Source: Lineus longissimus (lineage: Eukaryota; Nemertea; Pilidiophora; Heteronemertea; Lineidae). Taken from it: 64,000 nt of DNA. The position numbers and the translations under genes were made by a program. The notes under the pieces were generated by a model, which worked only from the letters and a program-made list of their open reading frames with translations, did no database searches and was not told the DNA's origin. The stretch spans positions 19,734,437-19,798,436 of the forward strand of contig NC_088313.1 of NCBI RefSeq assembly GCF_910592395.1, in the 5' to 3' direction. How positions within the stretch are numbered: position 1 is the first letter of the stretch; the number at the start of each line of letters is the position of its first letter. This document shows, piece by piece, positions 24,602-30,600 of this stretch.

Positions 24602-27600
24602 GTAAGTGCTAGCATTCTGTCTTATTTGCCACGCGAGTGTGGCAATATTCACATGAGAAAAGTGGGATAAGCCATCCCAGTACCAAGCTACGTGTCTTGT
24701 TATTCTTCGCCTCCTCTCAAGTTATCATCTTCTTCTTGCTGCCGTAGATGCTAACATTTTGCGGGCAAATCCTCTTTTTAGCTCGCGGTGCAGCATATTG
24801 TTGTATCACTACCTCACTTAGCAGATTATTGTTGATAGTTCTTTGGTTTCCATGGCAATGACTTTTAGCATAATATTTGCAGATGAAGAGAAGTATACAT
24901 GGTCCTTATGACAGCAACTCCAAGAGTCGATATGTTGAGTTGTATATCGTCAACGATTTAAGACAGGTAAGGTTCAAGACGATCGGCTCCCTTTGCCTCT
25001 ATTTGCCTTGAAACATGATACACTAATAGTTAAATGAAGTTTCCCCAATCTAAGACAGGTATGACTTACTCTCATGGGCATGAAACATAACATACTATCA
25101 GTTAAATCAAACATTGGGCGTGATCATGATACTCTAGTTTCTCCGATCTAAGACCACTTCAGTAACTGCTACAGAAGCAACACAAATGCCTTTGGCATGA
25201 CTTCATGACCCTCGAAACACTTCATGTCAGAAACACCTGTGAAGATTTGGCGGTTAACAGTATGTGTGTAAGATAACCTCCCATTATTTTGATTCTTCGG
25301 TTTGCAGCCGGTTTGCGTCCGTCAAGTAACTCGTCCGATGTTTTTCACACTTTCAGTATGACAACTTCAAGAGAGACAAATACGCTGTGATAGCAAGAAC
25401 AAAAGAAGTCATCAATATAGTTAATGCAGTAAGTCATCAATATAGTTAATGTAGTAAGTCATCAATATAGTAAATGCAGTAAGTCACCAATATAGTTAAT
25501 GCAGTAAGTCACCAATATAGTTAATGCAGTAAGTCACCAATATAGTTAATGCAGTAAGTCACGATGTCAGTCACAAGTCCATCTTTTCCAGTATCGCCTT
25601 GGTAGTCTTCATCGTGACCTTGGATTTGGTAACGGGATGCCCAAAGGCCTGTATCAGGCAGTCGATTGAAACCATTGAGCTGAGACCTTTTTCTTAGCCT
25701 CACCTTGTAAAATTTAGATATTTGTCTCTTCACAATATCAATTTTAGATTTGAACCTTCCAAATTTGGGAAGTTGGTGAAGGACTTACCTTGGATTGGTC
25801 AGAGCTAATGTTGAGAATTGGGCCAGCATCTGCCTGTCTTTGTCGAAGAAGGTGCAAGAAAGAAGTTAGTATTTCATGATTTTGACGTATTTCATTATAC
25901 TTCCAGCTATATCGGCCGTTGAATATCTACATTGCCCTTGTCGGGGTGGAGATATGGACGAGTACGGATCGTATTTATGTTGTGGAGAATGCGGAGAAGA
26001 CCATGAACAACTTCCTCAAATACAGGAAGGATTACATTAATCCATATCATAAAAACGATAATGCTCAGCTTCTTACGTAAGTAGCACATCGAATCCTTAA
26101 GACCGGCGTCTGCCATCAATGCATCTTATCCCTAAGTTCAATCCCGACCTAACAAGCCATACCATCGACAGCTTGTGGGACTTTGCGATCTCAGAGGCCT
26201 GTGCATGAAATGTTCAACAGAGGCTTCAATTCACAGCCAAGGGAGAACATTCATGAAGGCATGGTCACTCTTACCATATATCAGTAAAATTACCTTCCGT
26301 CCATGCTGAATCAATGGGCATCTTACAACAAGATCAGGGAATTGAGATATTTCCAGCAATTATTATATGTAAAGTGCTTTTCCTTCTTCAGGGGTGCTGT
26401 GTTCAATGATGGAGTCGTAGGTAAAGCCGTGAAGGGTCCTATTTGCACGTATCAATACTCTGGTGGAGTCAACATGGTGAGTATAGGCCTGACTGGTCTC
26501 AAAGGCCTTTATACTGTGTCAAAACCTGGTCTGTCATGAATCTTCTTGGCTTGAACAGAGAAGGTTTAAGATGGTTTGCAATCAATTTTCATTCACATTA
26601 GGCTTGTTTCTTGCTGTATAACATCTTTGACATACATGTACCTATCTCAACCGTAGGAGAAATAGACTCTAATTGATACCAACAACAGGTGATGTTGTAT
26701 AAATTGTCAGTTGTGCCAGTGATGTTGTCTGTCAAGGCCAGACTTCAGAGAAGTTGAGTATAGAAATGGTTCTTTTCAAGACTTCTTCCTCTGTACGATT
26801 GTCCTTAAACATGTACATAGTTTAGTTCCGACTCTTCAGGACAAACACAGCTATGCAGAGACCACTGCGTCTACTGTCGCCCATGAAATGGGCCACAACT
26901 TCGGTATGGAACATGACAGTAGTGCTTGCATGTGTCCTGCCGTACAATGCATTATGACATCAGTCACCAATGGGTAAGATGCCGGATTATTCGCGAATGT
27001 TATGCTTGGTATTTTCAGCGGACAGTTTATGCGGTGATCTTGCATTAGTTCCTCTGCCTGCTGTCTATGCCGTCTGCAAGTGTAAAGAGGTGCAATTTGA
27101 ATCAATTTGAATCAACAGGACTTTTTGAATTGGGTTCACTTTGAAAAGTGATGGTTTTGGAGAAAACCTTGTCAGAAACTACTGCCACTGACAACGAAGT
27201 TTATAAACTTCACACAGACTCCTGAAGTTGAATATGATTCATCTCAGTAAAATTAGTTTATTTCCATAGCAAGGATTATCAACTTATGCTCTGACAAATA
27301 TCATTATGTCTTGCAGATGACAGTGATGGCAATATGGCACCACCTAAAGTTGCATCAGAGATTTTCTTTATGCTGTTTATCATTCTTAGCTTTGTTCATA
27401 TTCATGTTATCCATAGTTATATTTTATTTCAAACAGCCCACTAACTTGTTCCATCAGTTTAGAAAATATCTGCCCATTTCGACAGGTATTTTCGAAATGG
27501 ATGAGCCATTCCTTGTTTAGTCATGTCCATGTCTTTCCATGGTTCCGGGGCAAGTCCTGAGGCTATCCTGGTTCTCCTTCATGGGAATGCTTTCATGGTG

Positions 27601-30600
27601 TGGTAATGAGCATACAAAATGTTGGTATTGTGGTTTGTAGGAGGTAACCTACACTGTCGGAGAGGGTCACTTTCTCTATAACATTAGCAAGTAGACAGAC
27701 TGGGAATCAAACCCATGCCCATAACCTGAGAGATGGCCCTTTCATTAGGGGTGATACTATAATAAAAAACTTTACTTCATATCAGTTATTTTCTCTGACA
27801 TCTGAGATTGTCATATTGGAGATAACCTTTGAAAAAAAATCTGAATCTGGAACTTGTATATACACTTCTATATCCTTCGCATCAAAGCACCACCAGAGCA
27901 CTCCCAGCTTAAAACTCCCCACCCCTCCCGCGCTTGTTGCCGCTATAATTGTCGAGTCTCTTCCAGGATCATAGCCCTGTAGTGACGGTGGTGGCGATAA
28001 CCGTGGCTCACGAGATGGGCCATAACTTCGGGATGGAGCATGACCGGGGCACTTGTATCTGTGCGGCGCAACGATGTATAATGGCTGCCAGCAGCGGGTG
28101 AGGCTTTGCCGCAATTCTATCCTCTGTGCTTTGTTTGCTTGGTCGGCACAAATGAGAAAGTTTTTTTGGAAATGAGATTTTTTCAAATTTCTTTCAAAAT
28201 TTTTTTTTTTCTTCGGAAATTAGGTTTTATTCGTATATGCGAATTTTTTTTCAGAAATTACATTTTTTTCAAATTTTTTTTCTTCAGATAATTTTTTTCC
28301 GAAATGAGAAATTTTTCGAAAATGATTTTTTTCCGAAATGAGCATTTTTTTCTGAAATATACTCGCAGTTTAGACATTGTATACCATTGAATACCATAAT
28401 TAATTGTCATTGAGTTTTGCATTGTGCTTTTATAAGTCTTAGTTGCTAGGTGTTAATTTATTTGTTTTTACTTTAATGTTCCGTGCTAACTTGACTTAGC
28501 TTTCATCAGTATTTCCTTGGACTCATCCTTTGAATACATTTGTGCTTATTTGGATGTGACTTGCATGAATATCTGTGCATGGTCTTCACTAACCTGTGTA
28601 TAAATGCAATCTGGTGTAAGCATCTCTACAGCTTTTCAAAGGGTTTGAAAGCTATCTAAATATATCACTTATGGCCTCATTTCGAATATACAATATTATA
28701 TCAATAATTTCAATCTCTCTTTCAGGGGGTAAATATCTCAGCACTAAAATCATCCCGAAGAGGTCGCCATGATCATGAAGATGACGTCACACCATGAAAA
28801 TCAAAGATGGACGTCACCATTGCAGAGACGTCTCATCATCATAACAGAGGTCATGACGTCATCGGTGTAATTGACGTTGGGACAAGAGATGATGTGACGT
28901 CAGACCATGTCAGTGGCGGCCTCCGCGGGCCAGGGCCATTATTTTAGCACAAAGAATGAGGTTTCGGACTTTTGAGTGCGCATGGTAGCAAAATGCCACA
29001 TGAAAACAACTTAAGTTATATTCTGGGTCATTTTGAATGCTCATCGCGACTTCAGTTGAGAAAAGTAGACCACCTTGAATGTTCCTACTAGGAATATTAA
29101 AGTATCAGTCAATATCACGAACAGTGAGGACAACGTTTCCTGGAAATTATTGTAGTTTCATTTCATGGACATTTCCACTCAGCAGTTTCATGTTGACATC
29201 TCTCCGCATGCATCCTTTTAACTTTCCATAAACTTTCCAGCGGTATGAACCCGATTCGATGGTCATCGTGTTCCAAACAATATCTCGCTGATGCATTCGA
29301 AGCGGGCATGGACTACTGTCTGATGGAGAAACCAACGCGGATATACGACGGACCGATCTGCGGGAATAGTTTCGTGGAGCCTGGGGAGGAGTGTGATTGC
29401 GGTCTTGAAGAGGAGTGCGAGAGTGTCTGCTGCAATCCCGCCACGTGTAAACTCTTCAGCAATGCCACGTGTGCCACCGGATCCTGTTGTGATCAGACGA
29501 AATGCCAAGTAAGAAACCTCGCATTTTGTTGTTGATGTGAAAAGGTCGTGAAGCATTCTGACGATAAGAAGTAAGATCAGTACGTATTGAAGGGTTGACA
29601 TCTGAACGCATTCCAGACTTGACCTGATAGCTTGTTATGTTGATGTTGCGAGCAGCGAGGTATGTTACTTAAGGCCAGACTGGATGTGATGGTGAAACAT
29701 TAGGCTCTACCATTCAGCTTAAGCCAATGGCTTCTGTACATTGTATTGAACCTGACAAGAAAACATCTTTCATATACCCGAGCGAGAATTCCTCTTGATG
29801 AAACCACTTTCTCATTACAGTATAAGAAAGCATCGACCATGTGCCGTCCCCGTACAAGTGAGTGCGATCTGCCCGAGTATTGCCTCGGCTCATCAGAATA
29901 TTGTCCAGAAGATGTTTTCGTTCAGAATGGACACTCGTGTAATTACAAAAGAGTAAGTTTATCCACTTTATGATCATGCGTACATGTAGCTTTCTTCGCC
30001 TATATCTCAGTTTACGTGGCATCTTTTGTGAATCATGATACAGTTCACACCCCAAGCCTTGTCCTGATCCGCAAGCCATTTTCTTTCCAGTCATATTGCT
30101 TCAACGGTTCATGCAATAGCCATGACAGCCAGTGCCAGAAACTCTGGGGGCGTACGGCCAAGAATTCTGACAGTCTCTGTTACACCATGCTAAACCCAGA
30201 TGCGAACGCAAACGGAAACTGTGGATTTCATTGGATTAATATGTCATTCACAAAATGTGCAGCAAAGTAAGTTCATGTTTGTTGATGTAATTTTGTTGGT
30301 GGTCTTCCTCTCCCCTTTTCAATCAAAAGATTTTCATGTAAATTTCTGATGCAACCCATGTATTCAATTTAAAGTGAGCCAAATGAAATATACCAATGCA
30401 TCAAAGCGTGAAATACCTGATTTCTAATTACCATACTATTTCAAAGGTTTTTGAAATGTTTCCTGATTCGTCTAGTCATTGTTTCAGAGATGTAAATTGT
30501 GGCATGCTTCATTGCGTCCACCTCAACGAAAAGTTAGAATTCTGGAAGGAAGCCAACACCTATCTTATGCCGGAGACATTCATCACGTCTGCTCAAGGAA

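Follow-up and report, generated by a model that had tools for sequence, protein, structure and literature searches.

A tandem pair of probably mutually exclusive catalytic exons in an ADAM gene of the ribbon worm Lineus longissimus

Introduction

Tandem exons that are spliced in a mutually exclusive manner form a well-documented class (PMC9741552, PMC3228551). In human, 236 events involving mutually exclusive tandem duplicated exons (MXEs) are annotated, and the MXE regions retain 80.6% of their ligand residues compared to 53.1% of the other residues of the same regions (PMC9741552). The present work concerns a putative member of this class, found in a 64,000-nucleotide (64 kb) stretch of the genome of Lineus longissimus (RefSeq assembly GCF_910592395.1, contig NC_088313.1, positions 19,734,437 to 19,798,436 of the forward strand), hereafter the window, to which the coordinates of the locus refer. 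A single gene of the ADAM family contains two tandem exons for a zinc-binding catalytic site: A, at 26840-26973, and B, at 27967-28097. A first-pass annotation of this DNA had presented the pair as a candidate for an undescribed system, which is overstated since the class itself is known. Exons A and B resemble MXEs in their lengths, phases and homology and in keeping functional residues above the rest (PMC9741552, PMC3228551), the counterpart of ligand-residue retention being 14/14 identical residues in the catalytic core compared to 24/44 overall. What sets them apart is the segment to be exchanged, which in their case would be the catalytic, zinc-binding centre of a metalloprotease.

Alternative segments at a functional centre have already been described in other proteins. 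The channel NALCN has alternative selectivity filters (PMC3557258), a likeness in the position of the segments but not in the class of protein, and KHK and ACOX1 have alternative segments at or beside their functional centres (PMC9741552). In KHK, the swap concerns only the catalytic arginine among the predicted ligand contacts (PMC9741552), whereas the A/B swap includes the whole metal-binding motif and the Met-turn. Within the ADAM family, the splice variation described in PMC2148059 affects the cytosolic tail in ADAM15 and ADAM22, exon 17 in ADAM33, exon 18 in ADAM9 and the last exon in ADAM12; all characterised ADAM15 variants have a common ectodomain. The subgroup formed by ADAM8, 9, 12, 15, 19 and 28 (PMC2148059) shares with the exon-pair gene a domain order that runs from the prodomain through the protease, disintegrin and cysteine-rich domains to the membrane span and the cytosolic tail, a likeness by domain order and not by tree.

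No alternative catalytic exon of an ADAM was found in the available text of PMC2148059, and nothing on ADAM splicing in that of a paper on nemertean toxins (PMC10674772). The words “ADAM” and “protease” are absent from the main text of PMC9741552 and, in the main text of a survey of human MXEs (PMC5740500), “ADAM” is present only as an author name, the supplements of both papers being outside this scope. More generally, neither an ADAM with alternative catalytic exons nor any use of MXEs for the active site of a metalloprotease was found among the titles and opening abstract lines of the matches listed from the open-access literature (subscription papers, preprints and supplements were outside its scope), and a text search of this literature with the peptide HEMGHNFG gave no match.

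Results

Two tandem exons encode a complete catalytic site

The borders proposed for the two exons by the first-pass annotation proved exact to the base, exon A being bordered by ctcttcag and gtaaga and exon B by cttccag and gtgagg. The zinc-binding site and the Met-turn claimed for both are indeed present in each of them (HExxHxxGxxHD and CIM), and the phases are also as announced: both exons start in phase 0 and end in phase 2, with lengths of 134 and 131 nucleotides (nt), each 2 modulo 3. The exon before the pair ends in phase 0 at position 26476 and the exon after it completes the split codon from position 29241. The encoded segment has 45 residues for A and 44 for B, its final codon (G) being finished by the next exon. 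A search of the window for the 12-residue zinc-site pattern, a degenerate pattern for which up to three mismatches were permitted, gave two matches, both without any mismatch, compared to none in 100 shuffled sequences. Taken as single exons, A and B match the Pfam Reprolysin family with 39.8 and 40.0 bits, respectively (cut-off 20.8).

The reading frame goes through the gene model with A alone or with B alone; inclusion of both leads to a stop at codon 276 of the model and omission of both to a stop at codon 243. The claim of one ADAM gene with two alternative catalytic exons thus agrees with the gene structure, in which there is a single set of flanking exons and the frame would be kept only by the choice of one exon or the other. 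It had also been proposed that the two products would differ solely in and around the active-site helix. This is correct for the predicted proteins: apart from a one-residue length change, 24 of the 44 aligned residues are identical and 20 differ.

Divergence of the two exons

At the nucleotide level, A and B differ at 53 of 132 positions over the 44 aligned codons, with a nonsynonymous divergence (dN) of 0.37 and a proportion of synonymous differences (pS) of 0.81, a saturated value (standard error about 0.07). The intron sequences flanking the two exons cannot be aligned (ungapped identity of 22-40% over stretches of 20-200 nt). In contrast to this divergence, the 14-codon core shows seven synonymous and no nonsynonymous differences, all 14 residues being identical. 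When the 53 differences were placed neutrally, none of 5000 replicates had as few amino-acid changes and none of 5000 left the core unchanged. Simulations of neutral drift at 0.8 substitutions per site, which according to our own arithmetic is roughly a lower bound for one branch, never retained the core, whether they started from A (20,000 runs) or from B (20,000 runs); with the rate lowered to 0.3 per site, it was retained at frequencies of 0.00015 (A) and 0.0001 (B). Core retention together with synonymous saturation argues that, over most of their past, A and B were both maintained by selection as catalytic coding sequence. These comparisons point firmly to long purifying selection on both copies, with the zinc site kept whole, and to an ancient tandem duplication.

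The catalytic domain was compared to solved structures. Its B form is ahead of its A form with ADAM8 (138.9 and 122.6 bits, respectively), ADAM33 (126.5 and 113.0) and ADAM22 (79.0 and 73.9), and the structures of ADAM10 and ADAM17 reach the threshold with the B form only. However, the A form scores higher with ADAMTS-5 (36.3 compared to 32.1 bits for B), ADAMTS-1 (32.4 and 31.5) and the factor X activator (89.3 and 87.6). Of the two copies, B is probably the one that stayed conservative and A the one that changed more, a ranking to which the structure scores thus offer exceptions.

Search for further copies

The sequence between positions 16595 and 37099 was scanned, in a manner similar to WebScipio, for open AG..GT stretches of equal phase whose length lies within 15 nt of the query in steps of 3. 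The 13 query exons comprised A, B and 11 further ones; the first prodomain exon, the membrane exon and the tail exon were not among them. Exon A retrieved B at 0.498 of its self score and exon B retrieved A at 0.519, compared to a maximum of 0.079 for the remaining 11 query exons; the runner-up candidates for A and for B score below zero. The pair shows several of the features published for MXEs: lengths that differ by whole codons, compatible AG..GT sites, the same phase and homology (PMC3228551). The minimal exon homology score used in that work is 15%, a value with which ours can be compared only approximately since the scoring differs, and with its own settings that work reports MXE features in 90 of 16,180 exons of the fly X chromosome that are not exclusively spliced (PMC3228551).

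No third copy of the catalytic exon was found, either by tblastn with both exon peptides in the window (E ≤ 1) or by the intron scan. Furthermore, the interval from A to B yielded nothing else that resembles an ADAM exon by tblastn with the protein of the gene itself (window, E ≤ 0.001), which implies that a single exon was copied and not a whole gene.

Splice sites and candidate signals for exclusivity

Fourteen junction pairs were scored, and the splice-site scores of A and B lie within their range. Two possible causes of exclusivity were considered and set aside. Steric hindrance is an unlikely one here since the intron separating A from B has 993 nt. Incompatibility between U2 and U12 sites was rejected as well, both exons being bordered by AG and by GTAAGA or GTGAGG (by eye, no U12 scoring).

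The hexamer TGCATG, which we take to be an Rbfox-like motif, occurs three times in the 26477-29240 region: once in exon A (26927) and twice after B (28562 and 28576, 14 nt apart). About 1.3 copies are expected from its density in the window (64 kb, 31 copies on the + strand). These copies would be a weak lead and no more. In addition, T-rich imperfect repeats of about 30 nt cover positions 28157-28353, starting 60 nt past exon B; this stretch is possibly a landing site for a splicing factor or mere low complexity.

Gene model and domain architecture

The exon pair belongs to one ADAM gene of the + strand, modelled from splice sites and reading frame from position 16512, in the middle of the prodomain, to a stop codon at 38225. 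The model has 1012 residues with exon A and 1011 with exon B. Its 5′ end is incomplete, as the signal peptide and the first exons were not found. The first putative prodomain exon of the model (16512-16594, phase 0 in and 2 out) was detected by tblastn with the intronless paralogue on contig C17 (58.6% over 29 columns, E = 1.4e-5). A second such exon (23900-24015), placed by splice sites and frame, ends at the Cys of a CGV motif that we take to be the Cys-switch, and the next one, supported in the same way (24534-24601), carries the remainder of CGVEDHG. The 72-residue prodomain piece encoded by 16512-16594, 23900-24015 and the start of the third exon gave no Pfam match at E ≤ 1.

Most of an RMKR-S site, presumably furin-like, is encoded by exon 24883-24966 (its first R comes from the preceding exon), where the metalloprotease domain begins according to the frame and to Pfam Reprolysin. 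This domain starts at residue 77 of the model and scores 188.3 bits in the A form and 192.7 in the B form (cut-off 20.8). It continues through exons 25357-25428, 25907-26076 and 26392-26476, the last one ending in phase 0 and being the shared upstream partner of A and B. A 25-nt tandem repeat (25381-25580, six overlapping 75-nt copies) begins within exon 25357-25428, at its 3′ end, and extends into the intron. By eye, it duplicates the 5′ splice site of this exon, giving six GTAAGT donors 25 nt apart, and the use of a later donor would add an in-frame TAA.

Beyond the alternative catalytic exons, each of which carries the zinc-binding helix and the CIM Met-turn, the shared downstream partner (29241-29508) encodes the end of the metalloprotease domain and the start of the disintegrin domain. 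It is followed by a disintegrin exon (29821-29952) and two cysteine-rich exons (30091-30266 and 30488-30695), these four exons being assigned by Pfam; with either form of the protein, the Disintegrin (73.7 bits, cut-off 35.1) and ADAM_CR (90 bits, cut-off 29.4) families clearly exceed their cut-offs. Exon 31053-31239 carries cysteines that look EGF-like by eye, but no Pfam EGF match was obtained in the gene at E ≤ 0.001. The predicted transmembrane exon (35669-35798) is the sole candidate of the 31240-37200 region that passed the filters for acceptor, donor, open frame in phase and hydrophobic 21-mer. The last exon (37100-38225), whose frame is continuous with the rest of the model, encodes a predicted cytosolic tail with PxxP motifs and contains the stop codon. 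Of 41 open reading frames, 10 were compared to Pfam and none of the 10 matched any family at E ≤ 0.001.

Other ADAM-like genes of the genome

Profile searches of the genome were limited to candidate regions, so that the counts are lower bounds. The search with Reprolysin revealed at least nine places, three of them in the exon-pair gene and the others on contigs C14, C16, C17 and C19. Exon B matches its own genome in at least six places (six of the six candidates scored), the best one being exon A (49.1 bits) and the next one being on C17 (28.9 bits). The ADAM-like genes of C14, C16, C17 and C19 share a Reprolysin-type catalytic sequence with the exon-pair gene but, unlike it, have one catalytic-site match each (E ≤ 0.001, 9.9 kb per locus). 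In those of C16 and C19, the match stays open over the position of the intron that precedes A and B, suggesting that these two genes do not share this intron.

Two of these genes have features of their own. The catalytic site of the C16 gene (L009, about positions 7404-7475, − strand) reads HMIGHNLGMKHD and is devoid of the catalytic glutamate; its product is a probable pseudoprotease. On C17, a frame of 787 codons (L012, 2539-4899, + strand) is open, intronless and ends with a hydrophobic C-terminus. Its similarity to the exon-pair gene begins in the last part of the prodomain and reaches into the cysteine-rich region; it looks like a retrocopy and perhaps encodes a lipid-anchored protein.

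Discussion

Overall, the gene structure and the divergence of the two exons are very probably explained by an ancient tandem duplication of the catalytic exon in one membrane-anchored ADAM gene, the two copies being spliced in a mutually exclusive manner. Splicing factors specific to a tissue or stage would pick either A or B, and transcripts carrying both exons or neither would be degraded by nonsense-mediated decay. The two predicted enzymes share the prodomain, the upper protease subdomain, the disintegrin and cysteine-rich domains, the membrane anchor and the tail. The differences would lie along the margins of the active-site helix, in the cysteine loop behind it and in the residues past the Met-turn, where A is one residue longer. 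With an identical and complete zinc-binding core, the A and B forms should both be active proteases, a proposal less certain than the exclusive pair itself. It is also less certain that the swap would retune substrate choice or inhibitor sensitivity while targeting remains unchanged. We take the differing residues that flank the helix and lie past the Met-turn to be positions that shape the substrate cleft on its primed side, and a retuned specificity of A relative to B is plausible.

Several results weigh against this explanation or parts of it. In the neutral simulations, the 24-residue identity between A and B was kept in about half of the runs at 0.3 substitutions per site and in about 1% at 0.5; therefore, the argument for selection rests on the core and on synonymous saturation, overall identity alone being no proof at 0.3 per site. 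The splice sites of exon B are below the average of the gene without being its lowest (acceptor 5.3, range 0.2-12.1; donor 6.8, range 5.4-11.2). RNA pairing that would enforce exclusivity was not clearly detected between the three introns, in a comparison of low power (15 shuffles each, one genome): the duplex scores were −143.8 for I1-I2 (shuffle mean −147.7), −335.7 for I2-I3 (mean −331.8) and −151.6 for I1-I3, a borderline value (mean −139.4, standard deviation 6.7, best shuffle −151.7). Finally, a different substrate range of the two forms is a guess derived only from the position of residues.

Could the pair reflect something other than a functional switch? It might be mistaken for two adjacent ADAM genes, or be a haplotype or assembly duplication, but such readings have next to no likelihood, and nothing was found in their favour. 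No second ADAM exon was detected between A and B (tblastn, E ≤ 0.001), there is one flanking set and one continuous frame, and a divergence of 53/132 nt with unalignable flanks is too high for haplotypes; gene duplication, haplotype duplication and assembly artefact were thus rejected. It is also improbable that one of the exons is now unused, as a duplicate silenced so recently that its decay has not begun. The weaker splice sites of B within the pair would fit a silenced B, and the lower scores of the A form with ADAM8, ADAM33 and ADAM22 a silenced A. However, both exons are open, in frame and provided with usable splice sites, and the catalytic core is intact despite synonymous saturation, which excludes a long-dead duplicate and leaves recent silencing only.

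Two further readings accept that both exons are spliced. If the pair were mainly a decay switch, inclusion of both exons or of neither would serve to cut ADAM output, and both unproductive combinations do shift the frame to an early stop. However, this property is common to any exclusive pair with asymmetric phases and leaves the full catalytic core of both copies unexplained, so that we regard such a role as very improbable. The isoforms could also be biochemically equivalent, the pair allowing separate regulation in different tissues, which would deny only the last step of the explanation preferred here. The 14/14 identity of the zinc-binding core speaks for equivalence; the 20 of 44 residues that differ around the active site, together with the length change, speak against it, and presumed primed-side positions of the cleft are among them. 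We consider equivalence unlikely, though deserving of some weight. Mutually exclusive splicing of two catalytic exons stays the preferred explanation. A broader form of it is possible but rather doubtful: an ancient switch, predating the diversification of ribbon worms and the first of its kind in the ADAM family, would swap the catalytic centre of one membrane sheddase, its targeting domains remaining unchanged, so that the protein cleaves different surface substrates in different cells.

Among the members of the ADAM family, exosite domains and active site vary together, which makes the specificity of these proteases difficult to assign. In Lineus longissimus, two cassettes for the active site seem to have been maintained by natural selection within an enzyme that is otherwise the same. 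The A/B pair would thus be a natural experiment that separates the contribution of the active site from that of the exosites. Although MXEs are known as a class, their use for the active site of a metalloprotease would be a new application, well supported by the sequence, and a similar arrangement is worth seeking in other lophotrochozoan ADAM genes. If true, mutually exclusive splicing would reach the metal-binding centre of a protease.

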